Of a stretch of DNA of 64,000 nucleotides, positions 2,231-9,554 are shown in pieces. The stretch's first letter is position 1; each line of letters begins with the position of its first letter. Under the pieces are notes generated by a model that was not told where the DNA came from, searched no databases, and saw nothing but the letters and a program-made list of their open reading frames with translations. Made by a program: the position numbers and the translations under genes. Origin of the DNA: Pelagibius litoralis (GTDB taxonomy: Bacteria > Pseudomonadota > Alphaproteobacteria > Kiloniellales > DSM-21159); contig JARFRB010000069.1 of assembly GCA_029287455.1 (NCBI GenBank), forward strand, positions 1 to 64,000, read 5' to 3'.

Positions 2231-3403
2231 TTAGAGTCCCGCCAAACTGCCCGCCGGGGGCAGCGTTTCCGCCAAGCTTTCGGTCAGTAGCCTTTCCACC
2301 TCCGCCGCCTCCACATCGCGCGCGACGAAGGCCTCTCCGATCGCCCGCGCCAGAATGAACACCAACTGGCCCGCCTCGGCCTTCTTGTCCCGGCGCATGT
2401 GAGAAACCAGGCGCGCCGGATCGAACACCCGCCCCCCCAAATCCGCGAAGCCGGTCGGCAAGCCCATGGCCCCTATATGCCGCCGCACCCGGTCGGATTC
2501 CGCCGCCGCGCAGACGCCAAGCTGGGCGGAAAGCTCAAAGGCCAAGGTCATCCCCAGCGCGACCGCCTCCCCATGCAGCAGTTCTTCGCTATAGCCCAGC
2601 TCGATCTCCAGAGCATGGCCGAAAGTATGGCCGAGATTCAACAAGGCGCGCTCGCCGTGCTCAGTTTCGTCGCGCGCGACGATCGCGGCTTTCGCGCGGC
2701 AGGCTGTCGCGACGGCGTGGCGAATCGCGGCCGCATCGCCTTCCACAACCGCGGTGCCATGGGTTTCCAGCCAGTGAAAGAACTCCAGGTCGCCGAGCAA
2801 GCCGTATTTGACGGTCTCCGCGTAGCCCGCGAGTCTTTGCCGGCGCGGCAAGGTCGCCAAAGTAGCCGTATCCGCCAAAACCAATCTTGGCTGATGAAAG
2901 GCGCCTACCAGGTTCTTGCCCTGCGGCATGTCGATGGCCGTCTTGCCGCCGACCGAACTATCTACCTGGGCCAAGAGCGTGGTCGGTATCTGGATGAAGT
3001 CGATTCCCCGCAGCAAGACCGCCGCCGCGAAGCCCGCGAGATCCCCGATCACGCCGCCGCCCAAGGCGATCAGCATGCTCCGGCGGTCAAGGCTGGCCTG
3101 CAGCAGCCGCTGGCTAAGCTGCTCCAGATGACTGAAGTCCTTAGTGTGCTCGCCGGGCGGCACAACAAAGGCATCGAAGGCGATTTCGCTTTCGGCCAGC
3201 GCCCGCTCCAGTACGGGAAGATGCACATCCGCGACATTGGAATCGGTCACGATCAAGGCGCGGGGCCGGGCCAGCAGCGGGCCGATCAGCTCTCCCGCCC
3301 GGCCGATCAAGCCTTCGCCGATGAGGATATCGTAGGATCTGTCCCCAAGCTCCACGGGAACCTTCTCGACTCCCTCCCGGGCGCTCTCGCTGCGCGTGCT
3401 CAT
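2231..3403 (-). CDS. aroB: 3-dehydroquinate synthase
   Basis: Converts DAHP to 3-dehydroquinate, second step of the shikimate pathway, using NAD and a divalent metal (usually zinc) in the cytosol. The 390-residue product has the nucleotide-binding GGGVIGD at 115-121, the phosphate-binding PTTLLAQVDSSVGGK at 140-154, and the metal ligands E196 (in AGYAETVK), H259 or H263 (GHTFGHALE) and H277 (LLHGEA). Length is slightly above the usual 360 or so because of a short N-terminal addition. Its ATG overlaps the TGA of aroK (ATGA), so the two are translationally coupled in one operon, as in many alphaproteobacteria. Nothing odd seen. Confidence 0.97.
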   Translation of the reverse strand: MSTRSESAREGVEKVPVELGDRSYDILIGEGLIGRAGELIGPLLARPRALIVTDSNVADVHLPVLERALAESEIAFDAFVVPPGEHTKDFSHLEQLSQRLLQASLDRRSMLIALGGGVIGDLAGFAAAVLLRGIDFIQIPTTLLAQVDSSVGGKTAIDMPQGKNLVGAFHQPRLVLADTATLATLPRRQRLAGYAETVKYGLLGDLEFFHWLETHGTAVVEGDAAAIRHAVATACRAKAAIVARDETEHGERALLNLGHTFGHALEIELGYSEELLHGEAVALGMTLAFELSAQLGVCAAAESDRVRRHIGAMGLPTGFADLGGRVFDPARLVSHMRRDKKAEAGQLVFILARAIGEAFVARDVEAAEVERLLTESLAETLPPAGSLAGL

Positions 3404-4020
3404 GCCCCATCCCTCTGTTCCATGGCAGCACCTGAAGCAACGGGGGCAGGGAGAGCCCCGGCACCGCGCAGCGCGGTCATAACACGGTTCACCGTCTCCT
3501 CGGGCGGGCCGTCCTGGCTGTCCACCACGAGATCGGCTTCGGCGTAGACCGGGTAGCGCAGTTCCATCAGATCGCTAAGGATCTCACGCGGCTTGCCCCG
3601 GCGAAGCAACGGCCGGTGATGGCGCCGCGCCGTCCTGCGGACCAACAGATCAAGATCCGCCCGTAGCCAAACCGAAACGGCTAGATTCCCGATAGCCTCC
3701 CGGGTACGCGGGTCCATGAAGGCGCCGCCGCCAGTCGCGATCACACGGGGGCCATCCCCCAGCAGACGCTCTATGACCCGGCGCTCACCGTCGCGGAAAG
3801 CCTCCTCGCCATGCGCATCGAAGATTTCTTGGATGCTGCAGCCTGCCGCCTTCTCGATCTCCACGTCCGCGTCGAGAAACTCCACGCCCAAACGATTCGC
3901 CAGGCGGCGCCCAATGCAAGACTTTCCAGCACCCATCAGGCCCACCAGGACGATATTGCGGTGCCCCGAGTCGCTCGGCTGCCGTGCCTGGGGCGGACCG
4001 TCGAGATGCTGCGCGCTCAT
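3400..4020 (-). CDS. aroK: Shikimate kinase
   Basis: Phosphorylates shikimate at the 3-hydroxyl with ATP. From the chosen start the protein has 206 residues: Walker A GLMGAGKS at 27-34, the substrate-binding aspartate in the DADVEIE stretch near 52, the arginine in AFRDGE near 76, the GGGA loop at 97-100 and an arginine-rich lid (RRHHRPLLR) near 135. The start at 4020 is chosen because GAAGAAGGA precedes it; an earlier in-frame ATG at 4059 would add 13 residues of no known role. First gene of the aroK-aroB operon, divergent from the small membrane-protein gene at 4236. Confidence 0.95.
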   Translation of the reverse strand: MSAQHLDGPPQARQPSDSGHRNIVLVGLMGAGKSCIGRRLANRLGVEFLDADVEIEKAAGCSIQEIFDAHGEEAFRDGERRVIERLLGDGPRVIATGGGAFMDPRTREAIGNLAVSVWLRADLDLLVRRTARRHHRPLLRRGKPREILSDLMELRYPVYAEADLVVDSQDGPPEETVNRVMTALRGAGALPAPVASGAAMEQRDGA

Positions 4021-4235
4021 GTCCTTCTTCTTCCAACACGCGACCCGGCCGAGCGGCATTGCGCCGGATCCGTTGCATGGATATGCTGCCGCAACTTTTC
4101 CATCGGGGAAAGCTACGAGCCCCTCGGCTTCAGGGCAAGCCCGGAGCGCGGGATGGGCTATTCATTAAGTATCGGCGCCGCGCCCGGAAGCGGCATCTTG
4201 GGTCACACAAACGGTCAAACGATTGATAGGGATCC

Positions 4236-4376
4236 ATGGGTAAACTCGGTCTCTCGCTCTTGGTGCTCCTGGTCGTGGTGGTGGCCGTGGGTGCCGTCGC
4301 CTTAATGACGGTTGATATCCCCGCACCCTCGAAACCCGTGGAAAAAGTGCTACCGGATGCGCAATTCCCCCGATAA
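4236..4376 (+). CDS. Small single-pass membrane protein (46 residues)
   Basis: A short reading frame: ATG at 4236, TAA at 4374-4376, with AGGGA a few bases before the start. Residues 4-24 are an unbroken hydrophobic helix (LGLSLLVLLVVVVAVGAVAL), followed by a hydrophilic tail with DIPAPSKPVEKVLPDAQFPR. The helix plus the DIPAPSxPVEKV(L/I)PDxxFPR tail resembles, from memory, small proteins at the same place next to aroK in related genomes, which argues for a real gene. The following gene most likely starts at 4357, inside this one (20-base overlap), suggesting coupled translation. Probably anchored in the inner membrane with the tail in the periplasm. Function unknown. Confidence 0.7.
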   Translation: MGKLGLSLLVLLVVVVAVGAVALMTVDIPAPSKPVEKVLPDAQFPR

Positions 4377-6192
4377 GTCCTCGCCGGGGCGGCGCTTGCT
4401 TAACCTGACGCCCTGGGCGTGCGCGATCGCCGTTGCGATGGCAAGCGCGCTCTCGCCCGTCCAGGCGCAATCGCAGGCCCAAAAGTCGAGCGGCGGCGGC
4501 CCTATCCTCTTGTTTCCCGGCGCCGGAGGGGCGAACGACAACAGCCAGGCAGCGGCTCCCGCAGCCGCTCCGCGCGGCATTCAGGTGGACCGCTTGGACG
4601 CGGGCGCGATCGACAGTCTGGGCATTCTCGATGTCGCGGACGGCGGCCTCGGCTACGATCTTTGGCGCGGCAGCTCGCGCGACGAGATCTTGCGTTTGAT
4701 CCCCCTGTTGCCGGCTGAGCCTTCGACACCCGCGCGGCGCTCTTTAGCGGTGCGGCTGCTGCTCTCCTCGGCGGCCCCGCCCTCGGCCGACTCGGCGAGC
4801 GCCCAAGTCGCCGGGGCCGACGCGGCCCCCAGTACCCAACCCGGCCTGCTCTCGGTGCGCGCGGACCGGCTGCTGGCCATGGGCGAAGTTGCGGGCCTTC
4901 GGGAACTGCTGCGCGTCATTCCTCAGAATCGCGGGCAGAGCCCGGATCTCGCCAAACTCAGCGCGGAAGCGGCCTTCTTGGCCGAAGACAATGAGCAAGC
5001 CTGCGCTACGGTACGCAACAGCGTCGGCCTCTACCCGGATGATGAATTCTGGAACGAGGCCCTGATCTATTGCCAGATTATCGCCGGCGATACGGACGCC
5101 GCGGCCTTGGGAACGGACTTGCTGCGCGAACGTGGCGGATCGCACCCGGACTTCGTGCTCCTGGCCTCGGCACTGCTGGGTTATGGCAAGGCCCCGGTCC
5201 TGGAAACCTCCCGGCCGCTGGATATCGCGATGCTGGCGGACCTCGAGGCTCTGCCCGCCGACGACAATTCCCTGCCGCCCGCGGCCTTGGGCTTGCGGCT
5301 GGCCGCCGCCTCGCCCCTTGAGCGCGCCGCGATCGCCGAAGCCGCCGCCGAAACCGGTGCGTTGTCGGGCCTGGAACTCGCCCAATTATATCGCGAGATT
5401 AGCTTCACGGAAGCGGAGCTCGGCGCGGCCTTAAGCCTCGCGCCCACGATGACCGAAGGCACGCGGATCCGCGCGCTCCTGTTTCAAGCGGCCGAGCGGC
5501 CTGGCCTGCCGGCCGCCCGCGCGGAGCTGCTGCAGGTCTTCCTTCAGGACGGCCGCTCAAATGCCCTGCCGTTGGCGACCGCGCGCGCGGGGGCCGCTTT
5601 GGTGGATGCGCTGCCCCCGAGCCCCGAACTGGCTTGGTTCTCGGCGGTTGCCGGGAAGATCCTGCTGCTGGAAGGCCGAAGCGAGGGCGCGGCCGCCTGG
5701 CTCACCCTGGCGCGGCGCCAGGCCGTCGGCTCAGCCGAAGCGCGGGCCGCCGCCGTTGCGCTGCAGCCCTACGCCCAGCTCGCCGGCCTGGACTCCTCGC
5801 GGCCGGCCGCGGGATCTTGGCAAGAGGCCTGGGCGGAGAGCGCTTCGGAGGAAGACGAGATTCTCCTGGGCATTCTACTGCAAAGCCTGGGGCAAGGACC
5901 GGAACCGGATTGGGGACGGCTGATCGCCGGCGCGGATACCCGTGCGACCGGCACGGCGGAAGGCGGTAGCGGCCCGCTCACCGCCGCGATCTACGGCGCG
6001 CAAACCGCCGCGCGCGGCGGCCGGCGGGGAGAAGCGGTTATCTTCGCCTTGATCGCGCTCTCGCCAGCGGCCGCGGCTTCGGCGACGGATCCGCTAGTCT
6101 TGGGTCCGTCGATCGCCGCCGTCGCGGCAAGCGGCCTCGACCGGCCCGCCCAGGCCTTGGCGATCGAAGCGGCCTATCTGGCCGATCTCTAG
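4357..6192 (+). CDS. Secreted alpha-helical repeat protein of unknown function
   Basis: About 611 residues. The N-terminus has a positive stretch, a hydrophobic segment (ACAIAVAMASALSPVQA) and a likely signal-peptidase site ending VQAQ, so the protein should be periplasmic. The mature part is extremely rich in Ala and Leu (repeated LALRLAAAS-like helices) and reads as an alpha-helical solenoid, TPR- or Sel1-like, without a repeat I can name. No catalytic motif is visible. The start at 4357 is preferred to one 45 bases earlier because it gives a normal signal peptide and overlaps the small membrane-protein gene. xerD follows 23 bases later in the same direction. I do not recognise the family; comparable helical proteins sit beside aroK and xerD in related genomes as far as I recall. 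Confidence 0.75.
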   Translation: MRNSPDKSSPGRRLLNLTPWACAIAVAMASALSPVQAQSQAQKSSGGGPILLFPGAGGANDNSQAAAPAAAPRGIQVDRLDAGAIDSLGILDVADGGLGYDLWRGSSRDEILRLIPLLPAEPSTPARRSLAVRLLLSSAAPPSADSASAQVAGADAAPSTQPGLLSVRADRLLAMGEVAGLRELLRVIPQNRGQSPDLAKLSAEAAFLAEDNEQACATVRNSVGLYPDDEFWNEALIYCQIIAGDTDAAALGTDLLRERGGSHPDFVLLASALLGYGKAPVLETSRPLDIAMLADLEALPADDNSLPPAALGLRLAAASPLERAAIAEAAAETGALSGLELAQLYREISFTEAELGAALSLAPTMTEGTRIRALLFQAAERPGLPAARAELLQVFLQDGRSNALPLATARAGAALVDALPPSPELAWFSAVAGKILLLEGRSEGAAAWLTLARRQAVGSAEARAAAVALQPYAQLAGLDSSRPAAGSWQEAWAESASEEDEILLGILLQSLGQGPEPDWGRLIAGADTRATGTAEGGSGPLTAAIYGAQTAARGGRRGEAVIFALIALSPAAAASATDPLVLGPSIAAVAASGLDRPAQALAIEAAYLADL

Positions 6193-6215: not shown

Positions 6216-7187
6216 ATGGGTACGACCCAACGACGGCGCATTCCGCGCAGCGAATCTCCTCACATCGAAAGCTTTCTGGAAATGCTCGTGGCGGAACGCG
6301 GCGCGTCGCGGAACACGTTCGATGCTTATCGCCGGGACTTGGATCACTTCGCCGATTTCGGGCGCCAGCGGAAACTCGCCGTGGAGGCCGCTACGCCCGA
6401 GGTTCTGCGCGACTATTTGCGGAGCCTGGACGCGGAGGGCATGAGTGCCCGAACCGCGGCCCGAAGGCTTTCGGCCCTGCGCCAGTTTTTCCGCTTCCTC
6501 TTCGCCGAGGGGGTGCGCGGCGACGACCCCAGCACCTCGGTGGAAAGCCCGCGCCAAGGCCGTTCGCTGCCGAAGATCCTCAGCGAGGAGGAAGTCGACG
6601 CGCTTTTGGCGGCGGCCAGGCGGCGCAGCGGGCCGGAGGGGCTCAGGCTCACCGCCTTACTTGAGGTCCTCTACGCCACAGGCTTGCGGGTGTCGGAACT
6701 GGTTGGGCTTCCGGCGGCGGCCGTGGCGCGCGATCCCAGCGTTCTGATCGTGCGCGGCAAGGGCGGCAAGGAGCGGATGATCCCCCTCGGCGCGGCGGCG
6801 CGCGCGGCGCTTCAGGACTACCTGACGGTGCGCGAGCGCTTTCTGCGTGGCGCCGAAGATAGCCAATGGCTTTTCCCCTCGCGCAGCATGGGTGGGCACC
6901 TCACCCGGCACCGCTTTGCGCAGCTGCTCAAGGAACTCGCCCAGGAATCCGGCCTTGATGCCGCGAAGATCTCGCCCCATGTGCTGCGCCATGCCTTCGC
7001 CAGCCATCTCCTGGGCCGCGGTGCTGACTTGCGCGCCGTGCAACAGATGTTGGGGCACGCGGATATTTCCACGACGCAGATTTACACCCACGTTCTCGAC
7101 GAACGGCTTAAATCCCTCGTGCGCGATCACCACCCGCTCGCCGAACAAGACGCTGCCCCAACACGCAATCGCGCCAAGAGCGGTTGA
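6216..7187 (+). CDS. xerD: Tyrosine recombinase XerD
   Basis: Site-specific recombinase acting with XerC at dif to resolve chromosome dimers. 323 residues: SAM-like core-binding domain at about 15-105 and catalytic domain at about 120-300. All six catalytic positions are visible: R158 (GLRVSEL), K182 (RGKGGKERMIP), H255 and R258 (SPHVLRHAF), H281 (MLGHADI) and nucleophile Y290 (TTQIYTHV). Length and the HVLRHAFASHLL signature fit XerD better than XerC or a phage integrase, and the position opposite aroK is typical. AAAGGAA lies upstream of the start. The C-terminal end after the tyrosine helix is about 20 residues longer than usual (DAAPTRNRAKSG). Confidence 0.93.
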   Translation: MGTTQRRRIPRSESPHIESFLEMLVAERGASRNTFDAYRRDLDHFADFGRQRKLAVEAATPEVLRDYLRSLDAEGMSARTAARRLSALRQFFRFLFAEGVRGDDPSTSVESPRQGRSLPKILSEEEVDALLAAARRRSGPEGLRLTALLEVLYATGLRVSELVGLPAAAVARDPSVLIVRGKGGKERMIPLGAAARAALQDYLTVRERFLRGAEDSQWLFPSRSMGGHLTRHRFAQLLKELAQESGLDAAKISPHVLRHAFASHLLGRGADLRAVQQMLGHADISTTQIYTHVLDERLKSLVRDHHPLAEQDAAPTRNRAKSG

Positions 7188-7334: not shown

Positions 7335-8312
7335 ATGAGCTTCAAGATCGTTGAACAGGCACCCGCGCGGCTGAACCGCACGGAGCTCGCGGTTCCGGGC
7401 AGCAACTACCGCTTCATCGAGAAGGCGGCCGAGTCGCCCGCCGACGTCATCTTCCTCGACCTGGAAGACGCGGTGGCGCCCGACGACAAACCCCAGGCGC
7501 GCAAGAACATCATCAAGGCGCTCAACGAGATCGACTTCGGCAACAAGACCATGTCGGTTCGCATCAACGGCCTGGACACGCACTACATGTACCGGGACGT
7601 GATCGATATCATCGAGCAGGGCGGCGAGCGCCTGGACCTCTTCATGATCCCCAAGGCCGGCACGGCGGCGGACATCTACGCCGTGGACATGCTGGTGACC
7701 CAGGCCGAGGACGCGGTCGGGCGGAAGAAGAAGCTCGGCTTTGAGATGATCATCGAGACCGCGCTTGGCATGTCGAACGTCGATGCGATCGCCGCCGCGA
7801 GTCCGCGCAACGAATCGCTGCACTTCGGTGTCGCCGACTACGCTGCCTCGACCCGGGCGCGCACCACGGTAATTGGCGGCCCCAACCCCATGTACGGCGT
7901 CTTGACCGACGCGACCGAAAGCGGCGAGCGCGACTATCACTGGGGCGACATGTGGCACTACGCCATTGCCCGCATGGTGGTGGCGGCGCGCGCCAACGGC
8001 CTGCGCCCGGTGGACGGACCCTTCGGCGACATCCAGGACCCGGACGGCTATAAGGCGCAAGCCTTCCGCGCCGCAGTGCTGGGCTGCGAAGGCAAGTGGG
8101 CCATCCACCCCTCCCAGATCGAGCTCGGTCAGGCGGTGTTCAGCCCCTCCGAGGCCGAGGTCGAAAAGGCCAAGCGCATTCTCGACGCCATGGAGCAGGC
8201 CCAGAAGGAAGGCAAGGGCGCCGTCACCCTCGACGGGCGCCTGATCGATATCGCCTCCATTAAGCAGGCGGAAAACCTGGTCAACAAGGCCAAGCAGATC
8301 GCCGGCAGCTGA
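7335..8312 (+). CDS. mcl1: L-malyl-CoA / beta-methylmalyl-CoA lyase (HpcH/HpaI-CitE family)
   Basis: 325 residues of the CitE-like TIM-barrel family. Reversibly cleaves malyl-CoA to acetyl-CoA plus glyoxylate, and in the Mcl1 subgroup beta-methylmalyl-CoA to propionyl-CoA plus glyoxylate, with Mg2+. Visible motifs: RTELAVPGSN opening, FLDLEDAVAPDDK (acidic and CoA-contact residues), SVRINGLDT (substrate arginine), FEMIIETALGM (metal-binding glutamate) and HFGVADYAAS (metal-binding aspartate). The NGLDT and VAPDDKxQAR features resemble Rhodobacter Mcl1 more than citrate lyase beta subunits, and no citrate lyase alpha or gamma genes are nearby. Strong ribosome binding site. Monocistronic with its own probable promoter. 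The subgroup call is from memory of sequence. Confidence 0.85.
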   Translation: MSFKIVEQAPARLNRTELAVPGSNYRFIEKAAESPADVIFLDLEDAVAPDDKPQARKNIIKALNEIDFGNKTMSVRINGLDTHYMYRDVIDIIEQGGERLDLFMIPKAGTAADIYAVDMLVTQAEDAVGRKKKLGFEMIIETALGMSNVDAIAAASPRNESLHFGVADYAASTRARTTVIGGPNPMYGVLTDATESGERDYHWGDMWHYAIARMVVAARANGLRPVDGPFGDIQDPDGYKAQAFRAAVLGCEGKWAIHPSQIELGQAVFSPSEAEVEKAKRILDAMEQAQKEGKGAVTLDGRLIDIASIKQAENLVNKAKQIAGS

Positions 8313-8374: not shown

Positions 8375-8540
8375 CGTCATCGCGAGCCGCCCTCTTCCGT
8401 CATTGCGAGCCGCCCTCTTCCGTCATTGCGAGCCGAAGGCGGCGTGGCGATCCAGAGGTACTGGACCACGGCGTTCGCCCAAACCAACAACCTCTGGATT
8501 GCTTCGCCTTCGGCTCGCAATGACGGAAGAGGGCGGCTCG
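8375..8540. repeat. Palindromic repeat element with tandem 23-base units
   Basis: Two 23-base direct repeats (8375-8397 and 8398-8420, cgtcat[c/t]gcgagccgccctcttc) run into a long imperfect inverted repeat. Left arm 8406-8458 and right arm 8491-8540 pair almost throughout apart from a small internal mismatch and bulge, and enclose a 32-base spacer. The inner arm core reads CGTCATTGCGAGCCGAAGGC and leads to GATCCAGAGG. It fills the gap between the convergent malyl-CoA lyase and mltG genes. It looks like a dispersed REP/MITE-like element; similar GTCATTGCGAG...GCAATCCAGAG cores are, from memory, scattered in many proteobacterial genomes. It could also act as a two-way transcript end. No coding capacity. 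Confidence 0.8.
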
Positions 8541-8570
8541 AAATAACGGTTCGTGAGAACGGCGACCGGC

Positions 8571-9554
8571 CTATTCGCTGTCCGCCTTGATCTTGCGCCA
8601 GCGGGCGACGTTGCGGTTGTGCTGCTTGAGTGTTTCCGCGAAGGCATGCCCGCCGCTGCCGTCGGCGACGAAGAAGATGAACTTCGTTTCGGCCGGATTG
8701 AGCGCGGCTTCCACCGCCGCGCGGCCCGGGTTGGCGATTGGCCCCGGGGGCAATGCCTCGATCCGGTAGGTGTTGTAGGGGTGATCGACTTGCCAGTCCT
8801 TGCGCGTCAGGGCGCGGCCCAAGGGCGCCTTGCCCTCGGTCAGAGCAAAGACCACGGTGGGATCGGACTGCAGCTTCATGCCTTGCCTAAGCCGGTTCAC
8901 GAAAACGCTCGCCACCACGTCGCGCTCGGCGGCCACGCCGGTCTCTTTCTCGATGATCGAGGCTAAGACGACCGCTTCCTCCGGCGTGTTCAAGGGCAGA
9001 TCTTCCGCCCGGTTCTCCCAAAGCTCCGTCACCATCGCCCGCATGTCCGCCTGCATGCGCCCGACAAGCGCCGCGCGATCGTCGCCATAGGAGAAATGAT
9101 AGGTTTCCGGAAGCAGTGAGCCTTCCGGCGGCACGTCCTTGGCCTCCCCGACCAGCCCGTCAACGCCATTGACCAAGGCCAAAATCTCTTGGGAGGTCAG
9201 GCCTTCGGGGATTGTGACGCGGCGCATGACCGTCTTGCCCGACGACAAGAGATCCACGATTCCACGCTGAGAGATCGCGGCTGGAAAGGCGTATTCGCCC
9301 GCGCGCAAATCCCGGCTGCGACCCAGCAACTCCACTCCGGCCCGGAAGACCAAGGGTTCGCGCAGCACGCCCTCGTCCCGCAATTGCTGGGCTATGCCCG
9401 CCACTCCGGTGCCGCGCGCGATCACCAGGGTCTTGTCTTGCTCGAGCGGCCCCGCGCGCTCGAAAGCGTTGTAGCCATAAATGCCCAGCGCCCCGACCCC
9501 AAGCGCCGCCAACACAATCAGCGCGAAGCCGATGCGGAAGAGGCGGAGGAACAT
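8571..9554 (-). CDS. mltG: Endolytic murein transglycosylase MltG
   Basis: Inner-membrane lytic transglycosylase (YceG family) thought to cut nascent glycan strands and so end peptidoglycan elongation. 327 residues: one N-terminal membrane helix at about 10-28, a LysM-like subdomain at about 40-100 and the catalytic domain to the end. The catalytic glutamate is E202 in VLASIIEKETG; LLPETYHF and QSDPTV(V/I)FAL are further family signatures. It lies 14 bases downstream of fabF, an arrangement common in alphaproteobacteria (acpP-fabF-mltG). Length normal. Confidence 0.95.
   Translation of the reverse strand: MFLRLFRIGFALIVLAALGVGALGIYGYNAFERAGPLEQDKTLVIARGTGVAGIAQQLRDEGVLREPLVFRAGVELLGRSRDLRAGEYAFPAAISQRGIVDLLSSGKTVMRRVTIPEGLTSQEILALVNGVDGLVGEAKDVPPEGSLLPETYHFSYGDDRAALVGRMQADMRAMVTELWENRAEDLPLNTPEEAVVLASIIEKETGVAAERDVVASVFVNRLRQGMKLQSDPTVVFALTEGKAPLGRALTRKDWQVDHPYNTYRIEALPPGPIANPGRAAVEAALNPAETKFIFFVADGSGGHAFAETLKQHNRNVARWRKIKADSE

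Follow-up and report, generated by a model that had tools for sequence, protein, structure and literature searches.

Background

Important symbionts, pathogens and marine bacteria belong to the Alphaproteobacteria. Small single-pass membrane subunits, such as CydX and AcrZ, have their partners encoded nearby or elsewhere in the genome.

Several exported helical-repeat proteins have been described, and the relevant passage of one paper names NlpI, CpoB and LpoA as periplasmic TPR proteins and describes TtpA of Brucella abortus as a periplasmic TPR protein needed for envelope integrity (PMC7327166). For adjacent genes on one strand, the sections consulted of a review (PMC12548453) and a study (PMC10666635) state that spacings of -4, -1 and -8 are enriched and couple best. 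The review sections add that coupling declines with growing overlap (PMC12548453), and those of the study that heteromeric complexes are over-represented among the products of gene pairs that overlap or lie close together, as measured at -8 to +10 nt, not at -20 (PMC10666635).

Here we describe a pair of overlapping genes in a 64,000-nt stretch of Pelagibius litoralis DNA (hereafter the window), one contig of a 3.6-Mb genome assembled in 141 contigs. The first gene encodes a 46-residue membrane microprotein and the second an exported 611-residue protein predicted to fold as an alpha-solenoid (hereafter the solenoid). We propose, with a probability of about 0.5, that they form a conserved alphaproteobacterial envelope module in which the membrane microprotein anchors a periplasmic solenoid scaffold. 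In the literature searched, consisting mainly of titles and abstract openings with parts of PMC10117765, PMC7327166, PMC12548453 and PMC10666635, no published description of the pair was found.

Organization of the locus

The microprotein gene (4236–4376, plus strand, stop codon included) starts with ATG at 4236 and runs for 46 codons to a stop at 4374–4376; it is small enough for gene callers to miss. The solenoid gene (4357–6192, plus strand, 611 codons) encodes a putative exported TPR-like alpha-solenoid, and its ATG (4357–4359) lies within the 20 nt shared by the two genes (4357–4376, plus strand). These boundaries, together with a predicted helix in the small product, confirm the sequence-only reading of this DNA, which had proposed a 46-codon single-pass gene overlapping a 611-residue gene by 20 nt. 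The pair sits between xerD (6216–7187, plus strand), located 23 nt past the solenoid gene, and the divergent aroK (3400–4059, minus strand), with aroB (2231–3403) behind aroK and also divergent from the microprotein gene.

The same neighbours recur in a set of 101 loci which was picked for its matches and is therefore biased toward presence, and in which 86 loci carry both genes on one strand. There, aroK is divergent from the microprotein gene in all 85 loci with both, and xerD follows the 3' end of the solenoid gene on the same strand at less than 400 nt in 88 of the 90 loci with both. No RNA element was matched in Rfam at the gathering score between 3900 and 9000 of the window. Further along, a region between the genes at 7335–8312 and 8571–9554 (8375–8549) contains three direct copies of 23 nt (CGTCATYGCGAGCC...) as well as an inverted repeat of 45 nt whose arms are 96% complementary, and looks like a dispersed intergenic repeat element.

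Distribution among Alphaproteobacteria

Single-sequence searches of 143 genomes detected the solenoid in 102 and the microprotein ORF in 92, the source genome included. Profile searches of a class sample of 240 genomes detected them in 161 and 156, respectively, so that two families, neither with a convincing match in Pfam or NCBIfam, each occur in about two thirds of these alphaproteobacterial genomes. To relate their positions, one row was entered per genome and contig, which gave 144 solenoid genomes and 135 microprotein genomes among the matches listed, with microprotein rows entered down to E 3.8e-5 and the weaker rows of ten more genomes left out. With adjacency defined as one strand and a gap of less than 700 nt, the two genes were adjacent in 112 of the 116 genomes with both among the rows entered, and lay on different contigs in the remaining 4. 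The microprotein alone was entered for 19 genomes, or 12 after removal of seven with a weaker solenoid match (G074, G092, G105, G200, G220, G229 and G257). The solenoid alone was entered for 28, among them G178, G182, G249 and G251, where a left-out weak microprotein match does adjoin the solenoid. In 12 solenoid-only loci, a short hydrophobic ORF that the profile missed or barely reached was found directly upstream in 8 and was absent from 4.

Among the best 80 of 205 matches, microprotein relatives within Alphaproteobacteria included those from Sneathiella, Azospirillum brasilense, Rhodovibrio, Pelagibius and Magnetovibrio; for some, the assignment went no further than 'Proteobacteria'. A phylum-level draw of 200 genomes, for which the number of out-of-class genomes is not given, yielded 20 matches, all inside the class and including the source genome. 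No plasmid copies were matched by tblastn with relatives of the window proteins.

A quick xerD tree of 121 rows, 23 of them without the solenoid, requires 12 changes to account for solenoid absence, only 2 of which are imposed by branches with good support; one clade (support 98) holds 9 of the 23 solenoid-less rows. Solenoid presence varies within families, the gene being found in G125 and missing from G244 (f73), found in G023 and missing from G016 (f6), and found in G207 and missing from G075 (f23). Two very small genomes of family f31, G083 and G214 (0.8 and 1.0 Mb; 71% and 79% complete), retain the solenoid, and the one of their loci that was read (L103) has it before xerD with a divergent small hydrophobic ORF upstream. 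In locus L116 (G112), a single TAG interrupts the solenoid reading frame inside the matched region.

Family and fold searches

The sequence-only reading could put no name to either protein, and the searches agree, as neither the microprotein nor the solenoid had a convincing match in Pfam, NCBIfam or the PDB sequences. The window solenoid has no Pfam match at E up to 10, and its 47 homologues gave one match to TPR_2 (E 0.0024) and one to TPR_19 (E 0.0076), both weak and possibly in the same protein; by profile HMM, neither the window protein nor these 47 members qualify as TPR proteins. Stray matches were limited to LVIVD (0.039), suffix_2_RND (0.047) and MelC1 (0.09) for the window proteins, NinD, DUF5989 or EMC3_TMCO1 for single members (E 0.004–0.01), and K+-channel helices for the microprotein profile (E 0.38). 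Searches of PDB folds and viral folds returned nothing specific, absence from structure lists not ruling a family out.

Structure comparison of the solenoid retrieved many kinds of TPR superhelix with none outstanding, including BcsC (Z 10.4), YbbN (10.0), BamD (9.7) and MamA (8.9), and LbcA ranked 35th in Foldseek (E 0.084). Since the best Foldseek E was 0.016 and the Z scores were below 13, in the range of unrelated helical repeats, the resemblance of the solenoid to TPR proteins need not reflect kinship. From these comparisons, no family name applies to either protein.

The microprotein

AlphaFold2 predicts a single transmembrane helix at residues 3–25 (4242–4310, plus strand; mean pLDDT 91) followed by an extended 21-residue tail (residues 26–46; 4311–4373, plus strand). 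Alignments define the family motif of the tail as DIPAP...VEKV(I/L)P(N/D)(D/E)RFPR. With one predicted helix and fewer than about 50 aa, the protein has the features of a single-pass small membrane protein. Its mean net charge is +1.4 before the helix and -0.5 after it, and the N-terminal flank is the more positive in 93 of 104 sequences, from which we infer an N-in/C-out topology with the tail outside the cytoplasm.

Within genera, median dN/median dS was 0.05, 0.10, 0.10, 0.12, 0.13 and 0.19 in six groups and 0.48 in one two-genome group, and was undefined in an eighth. Rates around 1 would have refuted the proposal of the sequence-only reading; those observed are far from it (0.05–0.19 in 6 of the 7 groups, 0.48 in one), and pN was below that of the solenoid in 7 of the 8 within-genus groups. 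Judged by these substitution patterns, the ORF encodes a protein, which is as a rule under more constraint than the solenoid.

The solenoid

The solenoid begins with a Sec-type signal sequence (residues 1–37; 4357–4467, plus strand) ending in VQA|Q, with cleavage likely after VQA; A37 is at least 90% conserved in 47 homologues. By a simple pattern, 87 of 96 homologues have an SPase I-like signal, 6 a lipobox-like one and 3 neither. No lipobox is present in the signal sequence of the window solenoid, whereas three of the six lipobox-like homologues (L099, L123 and L143) have one that is convincing by eye and, unlike the window protein, are probably lipoproteins. Their lipobox hints that membrane attachment is important.

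An AlphaFold2 model built with 47 sequences is all-helical (pLDDT 86, pTM 0.83), with 29 helices of at least 4 residues following the signal helix and a poorly predicted region just after the signal sequence. Signal and model together bear out the earlier proposal of an exported helical protein. Two cysteines, Cys216 (5002–5004) and Cys239 (5071–5073), form a pair (5002–5073, plus strand) that is invariant, both being present in 96 of 96 aligned homologues, the window protein included; identity to the window protein falls as low as 18% in the 47-row alignment. In the model they lie on consecutive helices (212–225 and 230–242) at about equal distance from the turn, a placement which, in an exported protein, is that expected of a disulfide. 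From conservation and the model, a Cys216–Cys239 disulfide is probable.

The buried start codon

In 65 of 86 loci the two genes share exactly 20 nt. Of the 76 named loci in which both lie on the same strand, 67 have an in-frame solenoid ATG at -20. The overlap is not the short one of 4, 1 or 8 nt, -4 being found in 3 of 86 loci. Since 20 nt is beyond the spacings that couple best, such an overlap kept across the class is unusual, and its strictness makes the pair a clean natural experiment on how a long overlap governs the proportion of two proteins.

The first two letters of the solenoid ATG are bases 2 and 3 of one microprotein codon and its last letter opens the following codon, so that the former can only be AAT, GAT, CAT or TAT. 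Counted back from the stop, this position holds N, D, H or Y in 77 of 91 loci; T is the third base in 70 of these 77 codons, whereas codon usage in adjacent genes predicts 28.3 +/- 3.9. As a control, comparable codons at other sites of the microprotein gene have T as their third base in 209 of 460 cases (168 expected). Synonymous changes were seen in 0 of 47 close pairwise comparisons at the buried-start codon and in 11 of 95 at the E36–K37 codons (GARAAR tract), against 355 of 990 in the helix, and were also low outside start and tract (5 of 50 at position 35 and 4 of 50 at position 46); as the loci share ancestry and the pairwise comparisons overlap, these counts are not independent events and p-values are too small. 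The excess of T-ending codons indicates that the start of the second gene within the first is maintained by selection.

The purine tract over the E36–K37 codons (4341–4347, plus strand), with its synonymous constraint, is a candidate ribosome-binding element of the solenoid gene. Its predicted anti-Shine-Dalgarno pairing (-3.7 kcal/mol) is better than that inside the solenoid gene (-2.8) but weaker than that from synonymous resampling (-4.5), and codon choice strengthening the Shine-Dalgarno element was rejected on this ground. By the constraint at start and tract, the tail motif is partly the solenoid initiation site. The sequence-only reading took the overlap to imply coupled production of the two proteins; at 20 nt, longer than the spacings that couple best, such coupling is plausible rather than implied. 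In L084 and L155, the -20 ATG is still there with its frame closing after four codons, and the solenoid starts at +1; these loci are a natural instance of a start that has shifted and left a trace of its predecessor.

The tail and the microprotein without the solenoid

Tail consensus was 8.4 of 9 in 65 loci with the start at -20, 7.5 in 21 with the start assigned elsewhere and 5.7 in 13 with no solenoid, and core consensus in the same classes was 7.4, 7.1 and 6.7 of 8 (-20 start versus no solenoid: p 5e-6 for the tail, 0.016 for the core). The homologous ATG is missing in 11 solenoid-bearing loci, in six of which the residue is still N or D; five of these six (L098, L106, L114, L130 and L142) write the codon with C at the third base, as do the solenoid-less L075 and L141. 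At the five tail positions not fixed by the start, the 13 solenoid-less loci scored 3.77 of 5 versus 4.09 in the 11 loci with a moved start (p 0.69), so that no tie between tail and solenoid independent of the start was found at these positions. Docking therefore gets no independent support here: tail decay tracks loss of the buried start and is not by itself a sign of solenoid binding. The tail motif had been offered in the sequence-only reading as a mark of function, and it is indeed conserved in the alignments; as sole proof of peptide function it was rejected, because the same DNA carries the solenoid start and the constrained purine tract, which also constrain positions 41–42 and 36–37.

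The microprotein occurs before xerD without the solenoid in ten loci (L075, L137, L141, L242–L245, L247, L249 and L251), touching xerD or within about 230 nt of it. In one of these, L244 (G217), it carries a long Pro/Asn-rich extension for a total of 102 aa. Thirteen further genomes have no convincing solenoid match, one of them (G129) having a match at E 4.9e-4 that is broken by stops. Ten of the thirteen encode, just before xerD, a single-helix protein of about 45–75 residues with the pattern MPSLFRFL..LAIL.GL.YA.M.ALATFV.P.PREMTV.IP..K; no such protein was seen before xerD in L280, L286 and L288. Profile comparison of this divergent form (A4) with the window type (A1) gave a probability of 92.7 and E 4.2e-7 over 46 columns. 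By this measure A4 is homologous to A1, with some caution as both are hydrophobic, and in several of the 10 A4 members the tail still resembles IPx(D/E)(K/R)F. Because it is kept before xerD in genomes lacking the solenoid, the microprotein must have a role independent of the solenoid, and on the gene content of these loci it is the steadier member of the locus. Lineages that keep the microprotein and have no solenoid are ready-made controls.

This persistence bears directly on the claim that the pair is a functional unit, which stands as regards co-location and is weakened by the solenoid-less loci. It may be that two independent proteins share one operon, with the microprotein working alone or with another partner throughout the class and the solenoid having arisen or inserted between it and xerD, using the end of the first gene for initiation. 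The homologous A4 form with its similar tails, the lower pN of the microprotein and the likeness of the free tail positions with and without the solenoid all speak for such independence; adjacency in 112 of 116 genomes among the rows entered, the short hydrophobic ORFs that precede the solenoid in 8 of the 12 loci in which the profile fails to find the microprotein, and the decay of the tail once the solenoid is gone speak against it. We consider this, the main rival, possible on account of the solenoid-less lineages, at clearly less than even odds. Another view, in which the small ORF serves chiefly as a translated leader that regulates production of the solenoid and its peptide hardly matters, would explain why its 3' end contains the start codon and the purine tract, with their synonymous constraint, but is unlikely given the strong amino-acid constraint on the ORF and its persistence where no solenoid follows. 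A chance ORF or annotation artefact, as might be suspected of a short hydrophobic frame in GC-rich DNA, was rejected with near certainty on the homologues in 92 of 143 genomes, the co-location with the solenoid and dN/dS values far below 1.

A proposed envelope module

The reading that we prefer, an envelope module, would work as follows. The first gene would yield a bitopic inner-membrane microprotein of 46 residues, N-in/C-out, with its short conserved tail in the periplasm, and the second a Sec-exported TPR-like solenoid folding in the periplasm around the conserved disulfide. Ribosomes ending the first gene may open or feed the start of the second at the ATG 20 nt inside, and through this coupling solenoid output would follow that of the microprotein, probably at a lower level. 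The microprotein tail would then dock the solenoid at the inner membrane, where the latter may serve as a protein-binding scaffold. Sequence alone establishes that the genes are real and co-located across the class, that the buried start is under selection, and that the solenoid carries an export signal and the cysteine pair; helix and fold class are predictions. A more specific version, which we put forward tentatively and rate somewhat short of an even chance, is that of an undescribed envelope machine in which the microprotein, an old component of the aroK–xerD locus, would be the inner-membrane receptor for a disulfide-braced solenoid, and the 20-nt dual-coding stretch would specify both the binding tail of the receptor and the initiation site of its partner. 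The co-location of the pair in a large share of the Alphaproteobacteria sampled, with the second start buried in the end of the first gene, suggests a component of the bacterial cell envelope that has so far escaped description.

Comparison with known systems

The solenoid resembles periplasmic TPR proteins such as LbcA, BamD and BcsC in being exported and possibly, as its structure matches are only middling, in a superhelix of helix hairpins, but it lacks a convincing TPR sequence match and has an invariant cysteine pair of its own. TPR lipoproteins of the LbcA/NlpI type carry a lipobox, whereas the window solenoid does not. TtpA, compared by description only, is likewise alphaproteobacterial, periplasmic and TPR, and the passage on it in PMC7327166 mentions no companion microprotein. 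As in the coupled, overlapping pairs treated under termination-reinitiation in the sections consulted of PMC10666635 and PMC12548453, the second gene starts inside the first on the same strand, but the overlap is 20 nt instead of the 4, 1 or 8 nt enriched in such pairs. In size and in its one helix, the microprotein is comparable, by description only, to CydX and AcrZ; unlike these, its tail is probably extracytoplasmic and its candidate partner periplasmic.
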